Source: a virus
Length of the DNA: 26,645 bases
Strand: one strand, 5' to 3'
IMG/VR virus record: IMGVR_UViG_3300025383_001379
Coordinates: 1-26,645 of that record
Shown here: positions 1 through 24,249 of the stretch, one piece after another
Numbering within the stretch: the first letter of the stretch is position 1
Layout: each line of letters opens with the position of its first letter
The notes under the pieces: generated by a model
Told to the model about the DNA's origin: nothing
Seen by the model: only the letters and a program-made list of their open reading frames with translations
Databases searched by the model: none
Made by a program: the position numbers and the translations under genes

Positions 1-2700
1 ATTTAGGAAGAGCGTCTCAATGTCAAGCATTGGTGCTAGATTTGCTAGGTAATCCAACACCGATTGTGAATACACTTTACGCGGTAGAAAATAGGTGTAC
101 TTGTCTCCATGCATGGATCCTGGAAAAAATGGACTTCCTCCTGGACTAGTGTATGGACTGGGCACTGGAGAAAAGTAAGGGCTTCCGCCTGGACTTGCAC
201 TACCTGGATAAAAAAGCATTTGGTATTCCTCTTTGCTTATGTGATTTGCTTGTGCGTGTATTCTATCACCAACGATCGCATAATTAAATCGGTTGATTCC
301 CGGATGGTCGCTTGCATTCATTAATCCAATCAGCTCATCTAAGGTAGAGTGAGTCGGTACAACATAATCCGAATAGAGAGACATGCGAATTATTGTTCCA
401 GGATGAGGTGGATCAAGATAGAAGCCGGCTTCAAAGTCATCTAAGTAGATGCAATCAGCCATGCGTAACCAGTAAAGAGAGTCCAGAGTGACTCCATTGA
501 AATCATTAAGAGTCAGAGACATGTCGCCATTGCCTAGTCCCCAATAGAGTTTCTTAGGGTGTCTTTGTGCTGGATCAGTGTAGGCAACATACTGACCTAA
601 ATCTGTATCATATAGCTCAACATCATACAGGTTTTGGCCCATTCCATAACGATTCTTATAGAATGCAATCCACTCAAGTAGATTTTTGTATACGTCAAAC
701 TTAACGGCAGCATCTTCATTGTTTAAAACATTGACCTTTGGATAGTAGAAAGGAGTAGCTCCAAAATCCTGCAGTCTCACGTTGGTTAGGTTTGCAAGTT
801 GGTAATTAAACTTGTCCTCAAGTCGAGTGATACCGATAATTTGAGGCTTTTGATCGCTTTGTACTGTGACAAATCTACTAAATGTGCTGATGTTTCCGCT
901 AAAGTCATAGAGCTCAGCAATGATTCGATATTTACCAGCATAAGGTAATACATGAGGCAGCTCATAAAGGTCTATCAGCTTACCCCTAAGGGAAAATGAG
1001 TAGGGATTTGGGGTGTCTTGTACTATTCGCCAATTGACTTCATAATAGTTTCCAAAATCAATATTGCCAAGGGTCCAATACGGACTCAATCCTGGAGCAG
1101 AGGCTCCTAGCTCACCTATTTGTACTCCTGAAAGGTCAGCTAGGGTGAATCCTCCAGTCTCTAATGTAAATATCACCGGAGCACCAATGACTCTTTCTGG
1201 ATCATCGCCAAATTCCCAAGTCAGTTTTTTACCAATATCTGGGAATCTCTGATCCCTTATTTCATTGTAAAAAGTCTTGAAGTTGTCAATTATTTTGACA
1301 ACCTCGTCACGAGTTGAATACCTTTGATTAAACTCAAATGGGTTGTCTGCTCCATTGTTATTGATTCTGCCGACTCCAAAATCTATTCCGCCTGGATCTT
1401 GCATCCTAAAAAGTGGATCTAGAGCGCGTAGAGTAATGTCATGATTTATGTCTGGGTATATTGCAACGTCTGCATGATCGTTGAAATTAAGGGTTGAGAT
1501 CCTGTCTGAATCATTCCAGTTAGCTATTCTTATTCTTTGAAAATAGATGAACTCCCCAATAATGTCCTTGATCTTTACGTTTACCGGTAGAAACTCTAAC
1601 TTTAGCTTATCGTTTAGTAGATTAAGCTTGTAGAAAATCTCGTTCACAGTAAAATCGGTGGTCTCAACCACATTGGGAATTCCCTCGTAGTCATAAGTGC
1701 CGTCCTCCTTTGTGAACTCATAAACTAGAGCAAGAAACTCAGTCTTCTTAAATTGCTTACCCTCACGAATCTGCTTGTTCTTATCGACAAGGTCAAGGGT
1801 ATCAATCACACTAGCATTTAGGTAATCGCTAATGTCTACCATGATCAATTTATTGGTGTTGGTCGAACGAGGGTTAACATTTTGCCAATATTCTTTAATC
1901 TGTAGAACGTCCTTATAACCAAGCATGTTTACAAAATTAGAGAGACCTTTATAGGTTCCGATATATGGGTACACCTGTTCTTTATTGACAAGAAGCTCCT
2001 TTCTTATTCGATTGAGCTCAGCGTAGTCTGGGATTGCCTCCTTAATGTCATAGTCCTTTAGGATATTAGCGTCCTCACGTAGGAACCTGATTCCAAAGTT
2101 TTGTGCCCACGTCCTATATCTTACGTCCTCCTCAATACCCTCACCGTAAAAATCGATTTGTGCTATTTGGACCTTTCCTGCAAGGCTTGAATAAAAGATG
2201 TTGAGAGTTCTTTGAAAGTTTACTTCATTTGTTGGACTGAACGCAATATTTACCTGCAAAGGAAATCCCATATCTAGGGTTCCGCTGGTCGCTGATGAGT
2301 AATCTGAAAATGCGACAACTTTAGAGTCTATTTTACTAATGAACTCAGAATCTAATTGAGTGTCCCTAACTACCTCATAGAGAAAGAACTCGTTAGCCGT
2401 TTCATTTGAGCTCCAAGAAAACTCTAAGTACTCTCCGACTCCAAGGGTGGGAAACTTCCAAGGAACTCGCCCATATTGAACGTTTTCTAAAATAAACAGG
2501 TTCTCATTATCAAAAAGGTAGTTGGATATGCCCTCAAAATAGATCTTACCTTCCCATATATTTGTACTTGTGTTGTACTTTAAGTTGAGGTTACTTCCGA
2601 ATTTATTAAAGAAACTTAGGTTTTGAACTACCATCCAGGGAAAGCTATTTTTATTATTTATTAGTATCCCTAAATTAGATGCTGTAAATTGAACTTTCAC
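1..2700 (-). CDS. Very large putative virion structural protein (C-terminus beyond left edge)
   Basis: I translated the minus strand codon by codon from 2700 to 1 and found one open frame of 900 codons with no stop, so the gene continues beyond the left edge. The first possible start after the in-frame TAG is GTG at 2698-2700, which overlaps the end of the sigma-factor gene by 26 bp; the first ATG lies about 22 codons later. The protein is rich in aromatic, Asn and Asp residues. It has stretches that look like beta-sandwich (Ig/FN3-like) modules, for example around residues 40-110 and 540-620. A Pro-Gly-Ser-rich linker lies near residues 827-860, with SPGGSP appearing twice. No signal peptide or membrane segment is visible. 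Size, composition and position downstream of a late sigma factor suggest a tail, baseplate or fibre component. The exact role is not recognised. Confidence 0.75.
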   Translation of the reverse strand, partial: MKVQFTASNLGILINNKNSFPWMVVQNLSFFNKFGSNLNLKYNTSTNIWEGKIYFEGISNYLFDNENLFILENVQYGRVPWKFPTLGVGEYLEFSWSSNETANEFFLYEVVRDTQLDSEFISKIDSKVVAFSDYSSATSGTLDMGFPLQVNIAFSPTNEVNFQRTLNIFYSSLAGKVQIAQIDFYGEGIEEDVRYRTWAQNFGIRFLREDANILKDYDIKEAIPDYAELNRIRKELLVNKEQVYPYIGTYKGLSNFVNMLGYKDVLQIKEYWQNVNPRSTNTNKLIMVDISDYLNASVIDTLDLVDKNKQIREGKQFKKTEFLALVYEFTKEDGTYDYEGIPNVVETTDFTVNEIFYKLNLLNDKLKLEFLPVNVKIKDIIGEFIYFQRIRIANWNDSDRISTLNFNDHADVAIYPDINHDITLRALDPLFRMQDPGGIDFGVGRINNNGADNPFEFNQRYSTRDEVVKIIDNFKTFYNEIRDQRFPDIGKKLTWEFGDDPERVIGAPVIFTLETGGFTLADLSGVQIGELGASAPGLSPYWTLGNIDFGNYYEVNWRIVQDTPNPYSFSLRGKLIDLYELPHVLPYAGKYRIIAELYDFSGNISTFSRFVTVQSDQKPQIIGITRLEDKFNYQLANLTNVRLQDFGATPFYYPKVNVLNNEDAAVKFDVYKNLLEWIAFYKNRYGMGQNLYDVELYDTDLGQYVAYTDPAQRHPKKLYWGLGNGDMSLTLNDFNGVTLDSLYWLRMADCIYLDDFEAGFYLDPPHPGTIIRMSLYSDYVVPTHSTLDELIGLMNASDHPGINRFNYAIVGDRIHAQANHISKEEYQMLFYPGSASPGGSPYFSPVPSPYTSPGGSPFFPGSMHGDKYTYFLPRKVYSQSVLDYLANLAPMLDIETLFLN

Positions 2701-3073
2701 CGCTGGTGCTAAGTGATAGGAATTCTAGCGTCTCGTCTTTATCCAGTCCGGTCTTCTTGTGGATCTTTTTCCACTCTTTAGCATACCCATTTTTACATAA
2801 CTGTGTAAAATAGGCAAAGGCATTGGGTTTTGCAGATCTGGTCTCGTCAAAACTCTGCCAATACTTAATACAATCGAATATTGCAGACTGTACACAATCT
2901 TCCCTGTCGCGATCATCCCTAAAGTAGAGACGAACTACTGCTCTATTTGCAAGAATAATAAAACTGTCAATCGCAGCAGCGCTTAGCTTCCCTGCCTTTT
3001 TACACTTTATTATTTCATCGGTGAAATCGTTGTTATTGATGTAGTCTTTGTCACCACGTTTTTTTCTAGCCAT
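2675..3073 (-). CDS. 55: T4 gp55-like late-transcription sigma factor
   Basis: This 132-residue protein resembles T4 gp55, the small divergent sigma factor that directs host RNA polymerase to late promoters together with the sliding clamp. The resemblance is in order along the chain. A YINNNDF start of the first helix (residues 11-17) compares with YVNNKEL in gp55. An acidic helix follows (about 54-72). Then come FDET (75-78), PNAFAYFTQLCKNGYAK (83-99) and a lysine-rich helix, matching FDET, a PHAYITQACFNAF-like segment and a basic helix in gp55. It is shorter than T4 gp55 (185 aa), mostly at the C-terminus. The ATG lies 9 bp after the RuvC-like gene, so the two are probably co-transcribed. 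TAAATA-type motifs at several intergenic sites here are the promoter class it should recognise. The match is from memory, not an alignment. Confidence 0.75.
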   Translation of the reverse strand: MARKKRGDKDYINNNDFTDEIIKCKKAGKLSAAAIDSFIILANRAVVRLYFRDDRDREDCVQSAIFDCIKYWQSFDETRSAKPNAFAYFTQLCKNGYAKEWKKIHKKTGLDKDETLEFLSLSTSGESSIYSI

Positions 3074-3968: not shown

Positions 3969-4000
3969 TAAAGACACCGGATTTAGTGTACTATAGTTAC

Positions 4001-4963
4001 ATGAGATTAGGATACTGCTGCATAAACCTTACCTTAAAGGACAAGGGAATCACCACTAACCGTGGTATGATTAAAAAGACTTGGCAAACCCAAGGCATTG
4101 CACATGCTGCACTGCTTGCTGAGCAAAACTTACATGACATGTACCGGATCCTACAGTGGAACATTACCCAGGACATAAGGGTCTATCGCATGTCCAGTGA
4201 TATTTTTCCTTGGATGAGCGAGTATCGGTTTGAGGACCTGCCCAACTATGCTGCACTCTGTGAAATAGCTCACAAGATCGGAGAGCTTGCCCACACCCAT
4301 AACCTTAGGCTAACCTTTCACCCCGGTCAGTTTGACGTTCTTGCATCCCCTACTGAAAGCATCGTCACTAAGACAATATGCGATCTTGATCAGCATGCAC
4401 GTATCATGGACATGATGGGACTTCCAGCAAATCGTTATTCTGCAATAAACATACACATCGGTGGCACCTATGGTGATAAGGAGTCTGCTGCTGCTCGATT
4501 CTGTGAAAATTTCAAAAGGCTAGCTGAATCAACACAAAAGAGGCTGGTTGTAGAAAACGACGACAAAGCAAGCCAGTTCAGCGTAAAGGATCTATACGAT
4601 CTTGTCTATATAAATACTGCCTGTTCCATCACGTTTGATCATCTGCACCACAGATTTTGCACAGGCGACCTTACTGCTAGGGACGCAGCTCACCTTGCAG
4701 CTCGTACTTGGGATAAGGTGACACCGTTACAACACTATAGCAGTTCTAAGATATACGAAGATGCTACTCTACTTGCTCGTTCCCACTCAGATTACGTGTA
4801 TGAGGTCATACCCGACTATGACATAGTTGCAGATGTTGAAATAGAGGCAAAGGCCAAGGATCTAGCTCTACTCAAATATCGTCAAGACCTAAACCAGATA
4901 CACGATTATAGTATTGATAGAAGACTCTTAATTACTCCACTAAAACTTAATTTTGAAGAATGA
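4001..4963 (+). CDS. uvdE: UV-damage endonuclease, UvdE/UVDE family
   Basis: UVDE enzymes nick DNA 5' to UV photoproducts and other distorting lesions, starting an alternative excision-repair route. This protein has the family's TIM-barrel signatures. The N-terminus MRLGYCCINLTL is followed by a TTNRGM segment, where family members have a TNR motif. Further on are FHPGQFDVLASP (about 106-117, metal-binding His), INIHIGG (His152), VVENDD (Glu185), ITFDHLHHRF (Asp/His near 213-216) and DVEIEAKAKDLALLKYR near the C-terminus. I start it at ATG 4001, not at an in-frame GTG at 3986, because the family begins with MRLGY; this gives 320 residues, the usual size. It is the first gene of the 14-gene plus-strand run. 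Its TGA overlaps the next ATG (ATGA at 4960-4963), so translation is probably coupled. Confidence 0.93.
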   Translation: MRLGYCCINLTLKDKGITTNRGMIKKTWQTQGIAHAALLAEQNLHDMYRILQWNITQDIRVYRMSSDIFPWMSEYRFEDLPNYAALCEIAHKIGELAHTHNLRLTFHPGQFDVLASPTESIVTKTICDLDQHARIMDMMGLPANRYSAINIHIGGTYGDKESAAARFCENFKRLAESTQKRLVVENDDKASQFSVKDLYDLVYINTACSITFDHLHHRFCTGDLTARDAAHLAARTWDKVTPLQHYSSSKIYEDATLLARSHSDYVYEVIPDYDIVADVEIEAKAKDLALLKYRQDLNQIHDYSIDRRLLITPLKLNFEE

Positions 4964-5835
4964 AAATCCTAAATCTAGTACAACCGAATAGCTCAGACAT
5001 TAATTACAAAATTTCCAGTTTTCCAGACGGGCAACAGGACGTAACTATTATCGATTATCCAAGAGTACCGACCTCACTCACCGAACCTATCACAATCCGA
5101 TCTAGGTTCAATTCATTCCGGGATCTTGAGATAATTATCTGTGCGACCAAGGCACTGAGAAATTTGGGAATAGAGGAAATTACCCTCTATGTTCCATACA
5201 TACTTGGAGCACGTAGCGACCGTCAGTTTGTTAATGGAGGTACTTCTTACCTTCGTGACGTTATTGCGCCAATCCTAAACTCTCTAAACTTTAAGCAAGT
5301 GCTGTGCTTTGACGTGCACTCAGACGTTGCCGCTGCCTGCATCAACCGACTTAAGGTACTCGATAACACATCACTAGTGACTGCATTCATCTCACGAGAA
5401 GCTGAAAAGCAAAACTGCACACCTGCTGAGTTTCTTAACACCTGCATTTTTGTTTCACCGGATGGAGGCAGTCTAAAAAAGATCTACAAGGTTGCAAGTT
5501 CTCTAAAATTTGACGGTGAAATACTCACCTGTAGCAAATACAGAGGCACCGATGGTAAACTCAGTAAGACCCATGTTCCTTATCGTATTGACCACTTCTC
5601 AAAAAACTTGGTCATCATCGATGACATTTGTGACGGCGGTCGCACCTTCTTAAACATTGCAGATGAGATCAAAAGGACTCAACCTGAAAGAACTGGCAAG
5701 ACATATCTAATCATCTCACACGGAATATTCTCAGCAGGGCTTGATGACTTGCGCAAGTCGCTAGACGGAATCTACTGCAGCAATAGCTACTCAGACATAA
5801 CTGATCCGTTAGTCACTCAACTTGGAATATTCTAA
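4960..5835 (+). CDS. PRPP-synthetase-like pyrophosphokinase (candidate Adps of a NARP1 pathway)
   Basis: This 291-residue protein is in the ribose-phosphate pyrophosphokinase family. It has FPDG (21-24), PYILGARSDR (79-88, the ATP-binding segment, ARQDR in bacterial Prs), CFDVHSD (116-122, the catalytic His), SKYR (192-195, where Prs has the KRR loop) and IIDDICDGGRT (219-229, the PRPP-binding loop). The last two differ from canonical Prs (KRR, DDMIDTGGT), so the pyrophosphate acceptor may not be plain ribose-5-phosphate. Phage enzymes annotated this way are known to work as Adps, turning ADP-ribose into ADPR-pyrophosphate, beside a Nampt-like partner. Here a Nampt-like gene lies two genes downstream. 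It is slightly shorter than standard Prs (about 315 aa). The family call is firm; the choice between Prs and Adps is inference. Confidence 0.88.
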   Translation: MKILNLVQPNSSDINYKISSFPDGQQDVTIIDYPRVPTSLTEPITIRSRFNSFRDLEIIICATKALRNLGIEEITLYVPYILGARSDRQFVNGGTSYLRDVIAPILNSLNFKQVLCFDVHSDVAAACINRLKVLDNTSLVTAFISREAEKQNCTPAEFLNTCIFVSPDGGSLKKIYKVASSLKFDGEILTCSKYRGTDGKLSKTHVPYRIDHFSKNLVIIDDICDGGRTFLNIADEIKRTQPERTGKTYLIISHGIFSAGLDDLRKSLDGIYCSNSYSDITDPLVTQLGIF

Positions 5836-5849
5836 AAACATCTATCTAA

Positions 5850-6338
5850 ATGAATAACTACACCGAAGTTTATGGGGATCTAATTGCCCTAGCTAAAGAA
5901 GGAAAATTTGATGTGATTGCGCACGGTTGCAACTGCCTTTGCACAATGGGAGCAGGATTGGCTCCACAAATGGCCTCTGCCTTTGGCTGTGACCTATTTC
6001 CACTAGAAGATATAAAGTACAAAGGTGACATCAATAAACTGGGTCAAATAGAAGCCCATCTCATCTCTCGCATGGACATGGAAAGAGGTGTCTTTGTGAT
6101 CAATGCATACACTCAATACTCCTATGGAAAAAATCATACAGATGGAGTTGACACACCAGTAGATTACGAGGCAATCACACTTTGCATGCGTAAGATCAAT
6201 CAAAAATACAAAGGCTTGCACATTGGGCTACCGATGATTGGCGCAGGTCTTGCTGGTGGAGACTGGGAAAAAATCAAGCACATCATTAAACGTGAGCTAA
6301 AAGATTGTATAGTAACTATAGTAATATTTAAAAAGTAA
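5850..6338 (+). CDS. Macro-domain protein (ADP-ribose / Appr-1''-p binding or processing)
   Basis: This is a single macro domain of 162 residues. The signatures are YGDLI (8-12), DVIAHGCNCLCTMGAGLA (21-38, the first ADP-ribose loop with an Asn at position 28) and LPMIGAGLAGGDWEKI (127-142, the phosphate-binding loop). The HGCN..CTMGAGLA form is that of the Poa1p-like branch, which removes the 1''-phosphate from ADP-ribose-1''-phosphate. Other macro domains bind ADP-ribose or strip it from proteins or nucleic acid. It lies between the PRPP-synthetase-like and Nampt-like genes (14- and 9-bp gaps), so it probably works on the same ADP-ribose/NAD+ pool. It could supply free ADP-ribose or remove an ADP-ribosyl signal made by host defences. 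The domain is sure; the substrate is not. Confidence 0.9.
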   Translation: MNNYTEVYGDLIALAKEGKFDVIAHGCNCLCTMGAGLAPQMASAFGCDLFPLEDIKYKGDINKLGQIEAHLISRMDMERGVFVINAYTQYSYGKNHTDGVDTPVDYEAITLCMRKINQKYKGLHIGLPMIGAGLAGGDWEKIKHIIKRELKDCIVTIVIFKK

Positions 6339-6347
6339 AAACAAACT

Positions 6348-7934
6348 ATGTTTAAACCCCCTGCAATATGGTATGCCGATGGCTATAAGCTCGGCCACAG
6401 GAGAATGCTCGCTAAAGGAACAACAAAACTTTACGGCACCTGGATTCCAAGAAGCGTAAAATACGCTCCAGGAAACATTAAAAAGATCGTATCCTTCGGC
6501 CAACAACTGGTCATGCGCTGGTTACACGATGAATATGCAGAAAACTTTTTTGCCCTCCCTAAGGAATCTGCAGTAAAGTTCGGTATGGACATTTCTGCAT
6601 ACCTTGGCATGCCATATGATGCCTCTCACTTTGAGGCTCTTCATGATCTTCAATACCTACCAGTCAGGGTAAAATCTTTACCTGAAGGTATCGAGACTCT
6701 ACCAAACATTCCTCACATGACATTTGTCAATACGGTTGACGGATTTGCCTGGCTGACCCTTTACTTGGAGACAATCATTTCTTCTCTTGCATGGAAGCCT
6801 TCGACATCAGCAACAATTGCTCTACAATACCGTAGAAACCTAGTAGAGTGGGTAATGAAAACTGACTCTAAAAATGCATGGCTAATTGACTACATGGCTC
6901 ACGATTTTAGTGCTCGCGGACTTTCTCCTTGGGATATGCTCTCCTCTGGCCTAGGTCATGCATCTTCACACAAGGGATCCGATACAATTATCGTGATCCC
7001 AGCTGCTCGCTATTTCTATGATGAGCCAGAAAATCAGGTTTGCATCAGTTCAGTGAATGCCTCAGAACACTCAGTGTCAACCACTAAAATATTCACAGTA
7101 GGCGAGCAACAAATGATTGCCGATTGGCTGCAAGACTTTCCAACAGGAATACTTTCAATAGTAGCAGATACATTTGATTTGTGGACACTTATTACTAAGT
7201 ATCTTCCAGCTAACAAAGACGCTATTATGGCAAGAGACGGTAAACTCGTAATACGTCCTGACTCTGGTGATCCTGTAGATATTATTTGTGGAGAATTTGA
7301 ACCATATCGAGTTATCAAAAAGGAAGATATTAATAAACCATTTATTCTTCCTGAAGGGGAAAAATTCATTTTCCTTGAGGATAAAAATACAAAATATTAC
7401 ACTAAGACTAAGGATGGTTTTGTAGATTATGTATATCAACCAAAACACAAAGGAGTTATAGAACTACTTTGGGAAATATTCGGAGGAACAGTAAACGAAC
7501 AAGGTTACAAAGTACTTGACCCGCATATCGGAGCAATATACGGCGATTCTATCACGCTCGACCGCCAAGTAGAAATCTACAAATGTCTTGAAGCTAAAGG
7601 TTTTGCCGCTACTAATATTGTACTCGGTGTAGGATCTTACACATATCAATACAACACACGTGACACTTTCGGCTTTGCTGCTAAAGGTGCCTGGTTTGAG
7701 GCTGACGGAAAAGAGTATGACATCTACAAGGATCCGGTGACAGATAACGGTACTAAAAAATCTCTAAAGGGTCTTGTTGCAGTCTTTGAAGAAGACAGAG
7801 AATATGCGGTAAAAACTCAGTGCACTCACGAAGAGGAAGCTACAGGTCTCCTACATACAATCTATGAAGACGGTAAATTCTACAACCAGACGACCCTAAC
7901 TGAAATCCGTCAAAGAATTGCAAGCATATCTTAA
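6348..7934 (+). CDS. nadV: NadV/Nampt-like nicotinamide phosphoribosyltransferase (candidate Namat)
   Basis: Nampt joins nicotinamide to PRPP to make NMN; the phage variant Namat joins it to ADPR-pyrophosphate to make NAD+ directly. Conserved residues are in place: DGYKLGH (11-17; Asp and Tyr of the nicotinamide site), HDFSARG (185-191; Arg like human R196), NASEHS (237-242; His like H247), VIRPDSGDP (301-309; Arg/Asp like R311/D313), IYGDS (397-401), GVGSYTYQYNTRDTFGF (427-443, the bacterial NadV form) and KDPVTDNGTKKS (461-472). At 528 residues it is longer than typical (about 460-500), with extra sequence around 322-372. It is two genes after the PRPP-synthetase-like gene. No NMN adenylyltransferase is in the window, so the classical route would need a host enzyme to finish NAD+. 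The family is certain; the donor substrate is unresolved. Confidence 0.92.
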   Translation: MFKPPAIWYADGYKLGHRRMLAKGTTKLYGTWIPRSVKYAPGNIKKIVSFGQQLVMRWLHDEYAENFFALPKESAVKFGMDISAYLGMPYDASHFEALHDLQYLPVRVKSLPEGIETLPNIPHMTFVNTVDGFAWLTLYLETIISSLAWKPSTSATIALQYRRNLVEWVMKTDSKNAWLIDYMAHDFSARGLSPWDMLSSGLGHASSHKGSDTIIVIPAARYFYDEPENQVCISSVNASEHSVSTTKIFTVGEQQMIADWLQDFPTGILSIVADTFDLWTLITKYLPANKDAIMARDGKLVIRPDSGDPVDIICGEFEPYRVIKKEDINKPFILPEGEKFIFLEDKNTKYYTKTKDGFVDYVYQPKHKGVIELLWEIFGGTVNEQGYKVLDPHIGAIYGDSITLDRQVEIYKCLEAKGFAATNIVLGVGSYTYQYNTRDTFGFAAKGAWFEADGKEYDIYKDPVTDNGTKKSLKGLVAVFEEDREYAVKTQCTHEEEATGLLHTIYEDGKFYNQTTLTEIRQRIASIS

Positions 7935-7965: not shown

Positions 7966-9837
7966 ATGCAGTATTTACACTATCTACCGTACGCTCTATT
8001 GCTAATTCCGGTATTAGCACTCGTCTTCTATCAGTTCACCCTACGCGCTCTACTCGGAATGGTAATAATTCCCGAGGACAAGATCGGACTGGTGACTAAA
8101 AAATTTGTCCTCTTTGGTGAAAACAAAACAATGCCCGATGGCAAGATCATTGCACTAAAGGGAGAACCAGGCTATCAAGCTAAGACCCTTGCTCCAGGTC
8201 TCTATTGGTTCTACTGGCCATGGCAATATTCAATCGATCAATCACCACTTGTAGTGATCCCTAAAGGTAAAATCGGATTGCTTTCAGCAAAGGATGGAGA
8301 CTCTCTTCCAAAAGGTGCAATCCTTGCTAGACACGTAGATTGCGATGACTATCAAGATGCCACTGCCTTTCTTTCCAATAGCGGACAAAGAGGTAAGCAG
8401 GTAGGCTACCTTAATAACGGAGTCTACCGAATCAATACCTTCTTATTTGATGTGACTGTTGCAGATCTTACCTATATCGAAGACGGACAAATCGGAGTCA
8501 TTACTGCTCTTGACGGTAGACAACTTGAAATCGGTACGATTGCTGGTAACGTAATTGAAAAACACAACAACTTCCAAGACTTTGATAAGTTCCTAGAAGG
8601 TGGAGGTCAACGTGGTCTACAAGAGCAGGTCATTCAAGCCGGTAACTACTCCCTGAATCCATGGGCAGTACAGGTAGAAAAGGTGCCGATGACTCAAATA
8701 CCGATAGGTAGCGCAGGAGTAGTGATCGCATATGTCGGAAAAGTTGGAACCGATGTTACCGGTGAGAGCTTCAAGCACGGAAATATCGTAAGTAAGGGAG
8801 AAAAAGGAGTTTGGGCGACTCCGCTTGATCCTGGAAAGTATGCAATAAACCCATACACCCATAAAATAGAAGTAGTACCAACTACTAACCTCGTACTTAA
8901 CTGGGCATCCGGTCGAAATGAGTCCCACCGACTCGATGAAAAGCTGAGCACAATCACAGTACGTTCTAAAGACGGATTCCCTTTCAACCTAGACGTATCC
9001 CAGATCATACATATCCCTTCAAACGAAGCGCCTAAAGTGATCGCAAGATTCGGTTCAATGCAGAATCTGGTATCTCAAGTTCTGGAACCAACAATCGGCA
9101 ACTACTTCCGTAACTCTGCTCAAGACTCAGACGTCATCTCATTCCTTTCTACAAGACAGAATCGCCAAGATGCTGCAAAGGAGTCAATCAGCAAAGTGCT
9201 AGAAGAATACAACGTACATGCAGTAGACACCCTGATCGGAGATATTGTGCCACCAGAATCGCTGATGAAGACTCTTACCGATCGTAAGATCGCAGAGGAA
9301 GAGAAGGTGACATACGATACTCAACGTAAAGCTCAAGACCAACGTAAGACTCTTGAATCAGCTAAGGCACTGGCTGACATGCAAGGAAAAATGGTTGCAG
9401 CACAGCAATCCGTTGAAATCTCCCAAAGAGAAGCCGAAGCTGCAGTTAAAAAATCTGAGGGTGAAGCAAAAGCCCTTGAACTAAAGGCCTCAGCTCAAGC
9501 AAAAGCAAAAGTGATGACCGCAGAAGCCGATGCAAAACAAATAGAACTCACCGGTGACGCTGAAGCTAAAAAGATCGCAGCGATAGGTAAGTCAACCGCT
9601 GAAGCCTATGAACAACAGGTAAAAGCAATGGGTGGAGACAACTTTGCTAAATTCAAGATCACTGAGGAAATCGGTAAAAACGGAATCAAAATCATACCAG
9701 AAGTGCTTATCTCAGGCGGTGGAGATTCTGCAAATAGCTCTATCAGCGGTCTCCTTGGAATGCAACTCTTGGAAGTGCTAAATTCTAAAAAGGCACCACA
9801 ACAAAACGCTCCAGCAGATCCTACTAAGACCGTATAA
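7966..9837 (+). CDS. Membrane SPFH/flotillin-like protein with four N-terminal tandem repeats
   Basis: I place the start at ATG 7966 (623 residues). An upstream in-frame TTG at 7918 would overlap the nadV end, and the A-rich leader fits 7966. Residues about 5-30 form one membrane segment. Next come four related beta-rich units of roughly 65-75 residues (about 33-95, 96-168, 169-241, 244-306). Each has an IP-x-x-x-IG(V/L) opening, a GGQRG-like or GEKG turn and a closing GxYxINP. The SPFH/band-7 core follows (about 307-450), then an Ala/Lys/Glu-rich coiled coil (about 435-555) typical of flotillins, and a Gly-rich tail. SPFH proteins build membrane-bound ring or cage assemblies and control proteases or membrane domains. 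A phage copy could remodel the host membrane, block superinfection or shield a protease; that is inference. Confidence 0.85.
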   Translation: MQYLHYLPYALLLIPVLALVFYQFTLRALLGMVIIPEDKIGLVTKKFVLFGENKTMPDGKIIALKGEPGYQAKTLAPGLYWFYWPWQYSIDQSPLVVIPKGKIGLLSAKDGDSLPKGAILARHVDCDDYQDATAFLSNSGQRGKQVGYLNNGVYRINTFLFDVTVADLTYIEDGQIGVITALDGRQLEIGTIAGNVIEKHNNFQDFDKFLEGGGQRGLQEQVIQAGNYSLNPWAVQVEKVPMTQIPIGSAGVVIAYVGKVGTDVTGESFKHGNIVSKGEKGVWATPLDPGKYAINPYTHKIEVVPTTNLVLNWASGRNESHRLDEKLSTITVRSKDGFPFNLDVSQIIHIPSNEAPKVIARFGSMQNLVSQVLEPTIGNYFRNSAQDSDVISFLSTRQNRQDAAKESISKVLEEYNVHAVDTLIGDIVPPESLMKTLTDRKIAEEEKVTYDTQRKAQDQRKTLESAKALADMQGKMVAAQQSVEISQREAEAAVKKSEGEAKALELKASAQAKAKVMTAEADAKQIELTGDAEAKKIAAIGKSTAEAYEQQVKAMGGDNFAKFKITEEIGKNGIKIIPEVLISGGGDSANSSISGLLGMQLLEVLNSKKAPQQNAPADPTKTV

Positions 9838-9857: not shown

Positions 9858-10349
9858 ATGATAGCTACTTATAAACCTACAGATGGAGACCCGAATTTTG
9901 TTCGGGTCTCTATTTTTTTAGCAGGCTCTATTGAAATGGGCACTGCTGAAGATTGGCAAACTACACTTACTGATTCCTTTAAGGACCTTAACCTGGAAGA
10001 TGTTGCTTTTTTTAATCCTAGACGCGACGATTGGGATTCTACTTGGGAACAGGATCAAACTAATCCTCAATTTAATTATCAGGTAAATTGGGAATTGACT
10101 CACCTAATGAAAAGCGACATAATTTTTATGTACTTTAGTCCTCTAACAAAATCACCTATCTCTCTTCTTGAGTTGGGACTATTTGCAAACTCTAAAAAGA
10201 TGATTGTATGTTGTCCTAAGAGCTTCTGGAGAAAGGGCAACGTTGATATTGTCTGCACCAGATTTGGAATTCCTCTATTCAATGATTATCGAGAGGCTGT
10301 CGGGGCACTAAGAACGCTAATCGAAACTAAATACTATACACATGGATAA
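9858..10349 (+). CDS. Nucleoside 2-deoxyribosyltransferase-like protein
   Basis: This 163-residue protein has the Rossmann-like layout of the nucleoside 2-deoxyribosyltransferase superfamily, probably the 'Nuc_deoxyri_tr2' branch. Motifs are IFLAGSIE (19-26, nucleotide-binding strand-loop), FFNPRRDDW (51-59), a NWELTHL helix (77-84), SDIIFMYF (86-93) and SPISLLELGLFA (99-110), with E105 in the position of the catalytic Glu. Such enzymes cleave or exchange the base of deoxynucleosides; relatives hydrolyse NMPs. Possible roles are base salvage, removal of unusual nucleotides, or acting on nicotinamide nucleosides given the NAD+ genes upstream. A perfect terminator hairpin lies within codons 8-21, and its T-run encodes part of IFLAGS, so the gene start cannot be moved downstream. 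Its last 8 bp overlap the next gene. Confidence 0.8.
   Translation: MIATYKPTDGDPNFVRVSIFLAGSIEMGTAEDWQTTLTDSFKDLNLEDVAFFNPRRDDWDSTWEQDQTNPQFNYQVNWELTHLMKSDIIFMYFSPLTKSPISLLELGLFANSKKMIVCCPKSFWRKGNVDIVCTRFGIPLFNDYREAVGALRTLIETKYYTHG
9881..9919 (+). terminator. Intrinsic terminator hairpin embedded in the start of a gene
   Basis: GAGACCCGAA (9886-9895) and TTCGGGTCTC (9901-9910) form a perfect 10-bp stem with a TTTTG loop. G-U and A-U pairs can lengthen it outward to about 15 bp (9881-9915). It is followed at once by TATTTTTTT. This is a textbook factor-independent terminator after the SPFH gene, yet it lies 24-62 bases inside the deoxyribosyltransferase-like reading frame. Ribosomes entering at ATG 9858 would cover the stem and prevent it forming, so it probably works as a translation-sensitive attenuator or a partial terminator. 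Confidence 0.8.
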
Positions 10350-23544: not shown

Positions 23545-24249
23545 ATGTATATCTATAAAACTAAAAATTTATTGAATTCTAAAGTATATATTGGAAAAAG
23601 TGAAAAAGAGTTTACTGATAAGTATTTAGGATCAGGTAAAATTCTTTGGAGAGCAATAAAAAAATACGGAATCTCTAATTTTAAAGTTGAGCTAATAGAA
23701 ACCTGTTCATCTATTGAAGAATTAAATATCAGAGAGAAATTTTGGATTAGTTATTATTCAGAAAATTCGTATAATCTTGCAGCTGGGGGAACTGGAGGCT
23801 GGACTACTCGGTATTATACAAGTCAGCAGCTTGATAATTTTAAAAAGAATTTGTCAAATTCATTAAAGGGTAGAAAACACTCAGATGAAGTAAAATTAAA
23901 ATTAAGTTTGAAAAATAAAAATAAATTTTTTGGAGATGCTGCACATCTTTCAGATAAAGTTAAATCTATCTGGGCAGACCCTACTTCTATCTTTAATAGT
24001 TTGGAGTATAGAAATAAATTAGCTATTGCTGGAAAAAAAAGAAAATGGTCAGATGAAACTAGGCGTAAGATAAGTGAAAGTAAACTTGGTAGTAAAAATG
24101 GAATGGCAATACAAATACAAGTAGACGATGATATATACGCAACTAGACGGGAGTGCGCAAAAAAATATAACATTTCAGAAACTGCTGTTACTAAAAGGTG
24201 CTTAAGTAAAAATTTTACCAATTGGAAAATTGTTTCAAAGAATAACTAA
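23545..24249 (+). CDS. GIY-YIG homing endonuclease with NUMOD motifs
   Basis: This 234-residue free-standing homing endonuclease has an N-terminal GIY-YIG nuclease: YIYK (2-5) and VYIGKS (14-19), a conserved Arg (R36), Glu (E64, in EKFWI) and Asn (N77). Two NUMOD3-type DNA-binding motifs follow, around 107-122 (KGRKHSDEVKLKLS) and about 167-183 (KWSDETRRKISESKLGS). A C-terminal helix-turn-helix (ATRRECAKKYNISETAVTKR) is NUMOD1-like. Such enzymes cut related genomes lacking the gene and spread by repair. The codons are clearly more A/T-rich than those of nrdB and nrdA, a sign of recent transfer. It lies in the nrdB-nrdA gap, a known hotspot for mobile endonucleases in T4-like phages. It has no intron and both flanking genes are intact. 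Confidence 0.92.
   Translation: MYIYKTKNLLNSKVYIGKSEKEFTDKYLGSGKILWRAIKKYGISNFKVELIETCSSIEELNIREKFWISYYSENSYNLAAGGTGGWTTRYYTSQQLDNFKKNLSNSLKGRKHSDEVKLKLSLKNKNKFFGDAAHLSDKVKSIWADPTSIFNSLEYRNKLAIAGKKRKWSDETRRKISESKLGSKNGMAIQIQVDDDIYATRRECAKKYNISETAVTKRCLSKNFTNWKIVSKNN

Follow-up and report, generated by a model that had tools for sequence, protein, structure and literature searches.

A probable NARP1-type NAD+-reconstitution module with an intervening macro-domain gene in a 26.6-kb virus record

The IMG/VR virus record IMGVR_UViG_3300025383_001379, analysed over its full 26,645 bases (“the window” below), carries three adjacent plus-strand genes at positions 4960-7934: an Adps-like gene (4960-5835, 291 aa), probably encoding an ADP-ribose pyrophosphate synthetase of the Prs fold; a macro-domain gene (5850-6338, 162 aa); and a Namat-like gene (6348-7934, 528 aa), probably encoding a nicotinamide ADP-ribose transferase of the Nampt fold. 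An earlier note on this DNA had described them as an adjacent, co-oriented set of Prs-like, macro and Nampt-family genes, and open reading frames (ORFs), strand, intergenic gaps (14 bp for Adps-macro and 9 bp for macro-Namat) and family matches all agreed with that description. Adps and Namat together form the NARP1 pathway, reportedly known since a 2024 Nature paper. Like the window, Bacillus phage SPbetaL1 and Escherichia phage JohannRWettstein (Bas63) carry Adps followed by Namat in the same orientation, but there the two genes are adjacent, with no macro gene between them.

The Adps-like protein departed from ordinary Prs in its motifs and in its phylogenetic position. It scored 69-70 bits with TIGR01251 (ribose-phosphate diphosphokinase), below the cut-off of 113. 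The SKYR and DDICDGGRT loops reported in the earlier note are present, and the second, extended to DDICDGGRTF, is exactly the loop of Bas63 Adps; the DVHSDV motif is also of Bas63 type. The replacement of KRR by SKYR, which the note had offered as support, was discarded as Adps evidence: SPbetaL1 Adps reads HKQR, and K-x-R is found in Adps and Prs alike. Among 57 dereplicated relatives, the DDICDGG-type loop was found in 55 and the HSxV motif in most. A tree with long branches (flagged by a warning of the tool) split five cellular Prs (SH-aLRT 99) from the phage proteins as a whole, the two characterised Adps and the window protein among them. At 13 discriminating columns, chosen for one residue common to three Prs and a different one common to both Adps, the window protein had the Adps residue in 6 and the Prs residue in none.

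For the Namat-like protein, the structure of SPbetaL1 Namat provided a list of NAD+ contacts and, for the clamp, the motif GSx(T/S)x(Q/N)x(N/V)TRD (PMC12774641). The SPbetaL1 and Bas63 sequences were fetched and every published NAD+ contact was mapped onto the window protein. Each contact was either conserved or in the Bas63 state (D11, Y13, K38, F187, S188, R190, D212, A238, R303, D305, G399, D400, S401, G429, S430, Y431, Y435, T437, R438 and D439, with S401 and K38 as in Bas63), and the catalytic H241 is present as well. The adenine selectivity clamp (SCH), GSYTYQYNTRD at residues 429-439, fits the published motif exactly, the aromatic residues at its third and seventh positions (Y431 and Y435) aligning with F392 and Y396 of SPbetaL1. 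The stacking position of the variable loop (SCL) is described for SPbetaL1 Namat as Arg, or as Lys/Tyr followed by a stacking residue (PMC12774641); at the position of SPbetaL1 R40, the window protein has K38 followed by Y39, and Bas63 has K42 followed by W. The Nampt-like catalytic core is represented by F187, D212, R303 and H241 (F189, D215, R306 and the catalytic His in SPbetaL1). The full clamp and the catalytic residues are common to the window protein and the SPbetaL1 and Bas63 enzymes, at 39-44% identity, and the best PDB matches, 9w5x and 9w5w, are SPbetaL1 Namat (a query with the chain recovers the SPbetaL1 genome at 100%). Among the 59 dereplicated Namat-like proteins of IMG/VR loci, GS followed by an aromatic residue was conserved in 58, and motif position 7 was Tyr, Phe or His in 39.

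Of 59 dereplicated IMG/VR loci, 54 held both Adps and Namat, so their clustering is far from chance. In one case (L052:5992-8409, in record G017) the two were fused in a single ORF of about 806 aa, and PHROG 12872 seems to represent this fusion too.

The macro protein remained below the library cut-offs (21.1 bits against 22 for macro PF01661, and 26.9 against 250 for DarG), and its identity was later confirmed by a profile search and by its predicted fold (mean pLDDT 86, from an alignment without two rows from public phage records), with TARG1, BT1257, Poa1p and DarG as relatives. Three residues, H25, N28 and C29, were invariant in 22 macro relatives; the first two occupy the positions of H23 and N26 in Poa1p, and the same His is present in TARG1 and BT1257. 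Linkage was assessed in 31 large Adps-bearing virus records (89-511 kb each, 5.46 Mb in total). Pfam Macro was abandoned as a detector, and a family profile was used for the census instead, because the former was too insensitive (2 of the 31 records); over these records it found no additional macro gene beyond a distant one in G017. A macro gene was present in 14 records, and in 13 of these it followed Adps on the same strand at a distance of 63-947 bp.

Thirteen macro genes within that distance of Adps compare with 0.27 expected (nominal P 3e-22, a value inflated by shared ancestry, which it ignores, and by a macro profile partly built from the same loci). Several other observations weigh, like this inflation, against the proposed role of the macro gene beside NARP1. 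The gene was missing from 17 of the 31 records, and no macro gene was seen in the NARP1 loci read of SPbetaL1, Bas63 and Itos; the best macro match was far from Adps in Klebsiella MJ359 (25 kb) and Escherichia phage Antha (63 kb); and the position of Poa1p Ser30 is T32 in the window protein and varies across the family. The macro gene is an optional NARP1 accessory.

Part of this arrangement is already in print. In phage Adele, the subject of a paper from December 2025, Adps and Namat are named as such, and the authors speculate that a downstream macro protein hydrolyses 1''-derivatives of ADP-ribose (ADPR), feeding NARP1 (PMC12846349). The Pseudomonas phages Adele, PAK_P4 and SRT6 (Pakpunavirus) have Adps, Namat and a Poa1p-like macro gene in one cluster, as in the window, though the order in PAK_P4 and SRT6 is Adps-Namat-macro, whereas in the window the macro gene lies between the other two. 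The order Adps-macro-Namat, identical to that of the window, was found in the cultured Vibrio phages Noelle (Thalassavirus) and K412, at loci whose annotation goes no further than hypothetical protein or phosphatase. The window macro is 31% identical to the PAK_P4 macro and 36% identical to that of Noelle. A May 2026 preprint describes another third gene: RyDEP, encoded in the NARP1 operon, opens 2'/3'cADPR (cyclic ADPR) to ADPR, from which NARP1 makes NAD+ (PMC13232231). In mycobacteriophage DyoEdafos, the production of ADPR for Adps by this third operon gene was shown experimentally; it is analogous to the role proposed here for the macro protein, but RyDEP belongs to the RyR-domain glycosidases and has no relation to the macro fold. 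The earlier note had presented the macro gene as a new third component. The linked gene between Adps and Namat stands, but the claim was overstated: the gene is optional, its link with NARP1 had been put forward earlier (PMC12846349) and RyDEP is a precedent (PMC13232231). Networks of phage macro, NADAR and NadV were described by Iyer et al. 2022 (PMC9503650), in whose text a search for terms related to phosphoribosyl pyrophosphate (PRPP) found none. The window therefore holds a diverged NARP1 plus an accessory known in principle. New here are the assignment at residue level, the linkage statistics, which give the scale of the macro linkage, and the gene orders in cultured phages; tight gene order in unrelated phages now ties the macro domain to NARP1, where earlier there was only speculation.

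Homology and residues make it highly probable that the 4960 protein is Adps and the 6348 protein Namat, both reaction steps being predicted on the same grounds. The gene run as a whole is read as a NARP1 NAD+-reconstitution module, with a probability of about 0.8; the residue-level tests against characterised enzymes support well the NARP1 reading of the earlier note. In such a module, NAD+ would first be split into nicotinamide and ADPR by an NADase of the host's defences, such as TIR or SIR2; Adps would move pyrophosphate from ATP onto the 1'' position of ADPR to give ADPR pyrophosphate (ADPR-PP), and Namat would couple ADPR-PP with nicotinamide, yielding NAD+ directly, with no need for an adenylyltransferase acting on nicotinamide mononucleotide (NMN). 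As a pathway, NARP1 is a general reply to immunity that depletes NAD+. The macro protein is suggested to feed NARP1 because of its recurrent neighbourhood: it may free ADPR from 1''- or 2''-linked derivatives for use by Adps, candidate substrates being ADPR-1''-phosphate, O-acetyl-ADPR, ADP-ribosylated macromolecules, immune ADPR conjugates and decayed ADPR-PP. This putative role as an ADPR supplier falls a little short of an even chance. RES-family NAD+ phosphorylase toxins were considered as a source of ADPR-1''-phosphate, which is possible (PMC8883491, PMC9503650), but were not adopted because one Pseudomonas aeruginosa study saw no phage-defence role for NatT (PMC11535050).

The macro protein might instead be an independent counter-defence gene, placed in a shared anti-defence island and metabolically unconnected with NARP1. 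It could sequester or cleave an ADPR-type immune signal (e.g. that of Thoeris), or strip ADP-ribose from DNA or protein modified by DarT-like toxins. TARG1 and DarG, two enzymes that strip macromolecules of ADP-ribose, are among its closest folds, phage macro domains are widespread and have been proposed to counter soluble ADPR derivatives (PMC9503650), and the gene lies far from Adps in some cultured phages. The tight same-strand position right after Adps in 13 of 14 records argues against such independence. So does the loop that in TARG1 reads GCGLD and in the window macro GAGLA: the TARG1 Asp, of which Ala135 is the counterpart here, is the catalytic D125 of the GxGLD loop. This alternative is doubtful, though a serious one, and the supply and counter-defence roles overlap, because a hydrolase of this kind would also release ADPR usable by Adps.

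Ordinary PRPP salvage is much less probable. Here a phage PRPP synthetase and NadV would produce NMN, from which an NMN adenylyltransferase, supplied by the host or by a phage gene outside view, would complete NAD+. At family level the matches are indeed to Prs and NAPRTase: the 6348 protein is assigned to the Nampt family by NAPRTase PF04095 (107 bits) and exceeds the cut-off of NF006629, a nicotinate phosphoribosyltransferase model (431 bits against 405). Three further points count against the NARP1 reading. The window Adps shares no more than 24-25% identity with the two characterised enzymes, and 22% with Escherichia coli Prs; Namat retains PRPP activity in vitro (PMC12774641); and in the Nampt-family tree, which is compatible with NadV, the SPbetaL1 and Bas63 Namat do not form one clade and the NadV of H. 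ducreyi pNAD1 nests beside SPbetaL1. The earlier note had proposed trees against true Prs and NadV as a check; the Adps half stood clearly apart from Prs, but the Nampt tree alone cannot separate Namat from NadV. With the characterised Namats not monophyletic and pNAD1 NadV among them, that tree was dropped as the deciding test and the clamp residues were used for the Namat call; with identities low and branches long, motifs and the tree split are the grounds for the Adps call. The residues speak against PRPP salvage. S430, Y431 and Y435 of the clamp match Namat and neither pNAD1 nor KVP40-type NadV: pNAD1 NadV deviates at the adenine contacts (A396, Q397 and R401 at the clamp positions, and E47), and KVP40-type NadV (KVP40-like PG216 and KP15) has GGG at the clamp. 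On the Adps side, none of the 13 discriminating residues is in the Prs state, and the score is 43 bits below the Prs model cut-off.

The genes that accompany NadV elsewhere also differ. In NadV-NadM salvage (KVP40 type and Brevundimonas phage Bambus, NARP2-like), a Nampt-fold enzyme makes NAD+ from nicotinamide, as proposed for the window, but KVP40-type NadV is 28% identical to the window protein, is partnered by NadM and has no Adps nearby; the NARP2-type cluster of Bambus likewise pairs NadV with NadM, with no Prs nearby. The absence of an NMN adenylyltransferase from the window, claimed in the earlier note, holds in that no PF01467 domain was matched in the 26.6 kb, which is weak evidence, since the window is a fragment and the gene may lie elsewhere. 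At E <= 0.001, PF01467 was absent from 15 of 32 records, the window being one of these 15. A PF01467 match beside another cluster (L026) was rejected as NMN adenylyltransferase; by eye it looks to be of the glycerol-3-phosphate cytidylyltransferase type. NARP1 remains the preferred reading. For phage entries named “ribose-phosphate pyrophosphokinase” or “nicotinamide phosphoribosyltransferase” in the databases, residues can serve to call Adps and Namat.

A third alternative, a macro protein acting as an ADPR-1''-phosphate phosphatase in phage RNA repair and not in NAD+ supply, agrees with the His and Asn at Poa1p-like positions and with RNA ligase genes, which occur in 12 of the 59 related loci and also close to the clusters of Noelle, PAK_P4 and SRT6. 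It is highly improbable, as the scan of window proteins recognised no RNA ligase and the macro gene adjoins Adps, not a ligase.

An Acinetobacter baumannii “NadV” was withdrawn as a PRPP-type outgroup, since it shows the clamp of Namat and its gene directly follows an Adps-like one. This protein (L151:518-2952, from NZ_CP104448, a chromosome-sized record of 4.09 Mb filed as a plasmid) carries the full clamp (R28, GSFTYNYLTRD), and the ORF ahead of it is nearer phage Adps than Prs. From their sequences, the two form a probable bacterial NARP1 pair.

The gene run extends past Namat into an SPFH/Band_7 (flotillin-like) gene (7966-9837, plus strand; PF01145, 92 bits) and then a nucleoside 2-deoxyribosyltransferase-like gene (9858-10349, plus strand; PF15891, 123 bits). 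The PF15891 family occurred in 19 of the 31 records, in all 19 on the same strand as Adps and within 11.3 kb of it. The predicted fold of the window protein is closest to the putative nucleoside deoxyribosyltransferase 4mcj (TM 0.82), with weaker similarity to YtoQ and to the CMP N-glycosidase MilB, and E105, within ELG, is invariant. PF15891 is presumably a member of DrHyd. TIR, DrHyd and SLOG enzymes that cut nucleotide N-glycosidic bonds form one clade (Iyer et al. 2022, PMC9503650). A function of PF15891 as an additional ADPR supplier, with a chemistry on the N-glycosidic bond suggested by its family, is unlikely; PF15891 is nominated as a second NARP1-linked enzyme family, and the linkage of both accessory families offers a testable extension of the known core. 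Somewhat less unlikely is a wider scheme, in which NARP1 in many large phages would be the terminal part of a larger ADPR-harvesting module. The macro and PF15891 proteins, joined in relatives by NADAR or DUF1937 proteins, would each degrade ADPR conjugates of a different kind or immune signals derived from TIR. Adps and Namat would rebuild the released ADPR to NAD+, so that the phage silences the alarm and uses its debris as fuel. Under this scheme, PF15891 would represent a so far undescribed kind of anti-defence glycosidase.

The commonest neighbours in the 59 dereplicated Adps loci were, besides Namat (54), PF15891 (25), an upstream ORF (23), macro (19), RNA ligase (12), SPFH (12), NADAR (8) and DUF1937 (6). 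NADAR and DUF1937 genes beside NARP1 (e.g. L013:7584-8054 and L083:4977-5318) are further candidate ADPR- or nucleotide-processing enzymes. The upstream ORF is short, HAD-like by eye with no Pfam match, and directly precedes Adps at a median distance of -7 bp (e.g. L092:4318-4734). It is absent from the window, where its place is occupied by the UvsE UV endonuclease gene (3986-4963, plus strand; TIGR00629, 195 bits against a cut-off of 124). The Adps start codon lies within the UvsE stop (ATGA at 4960-4963); UvsE is probably not functionally part of the NAD+ pathway. The SPFH gene, which directly follows Namat here and is linked with it in related phages (another example of the family is L118:882-2270), was assigned the ATG at 7966, since the first-listed start, TTG at 7918, would overlap Namat; it recalls the flotillin gene near NadM-NadV in Bambus. 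In Noelle, neither an SPFH nor a PF15891 neighbour was recognised in the stretch read, whereas the window has both. Promoter- and terminator-like matches across the gene run were not above those in shuffled sequences, and the run from Adps to PF15891 is likely to form a single transcript.

The window also carries GroEL, ribonucleotide reductase and further large-phage genes. A NUMOD3-bearing homing-endonuclease-like gene (23545-24249) splits nrdB from nrdA, and a 132-aa protein encoded on the minus strand (2675-3073), adjoining a RuvC-like gene, had a marginal match to sigma-70 region 2 (23 bits, cut-off 24).

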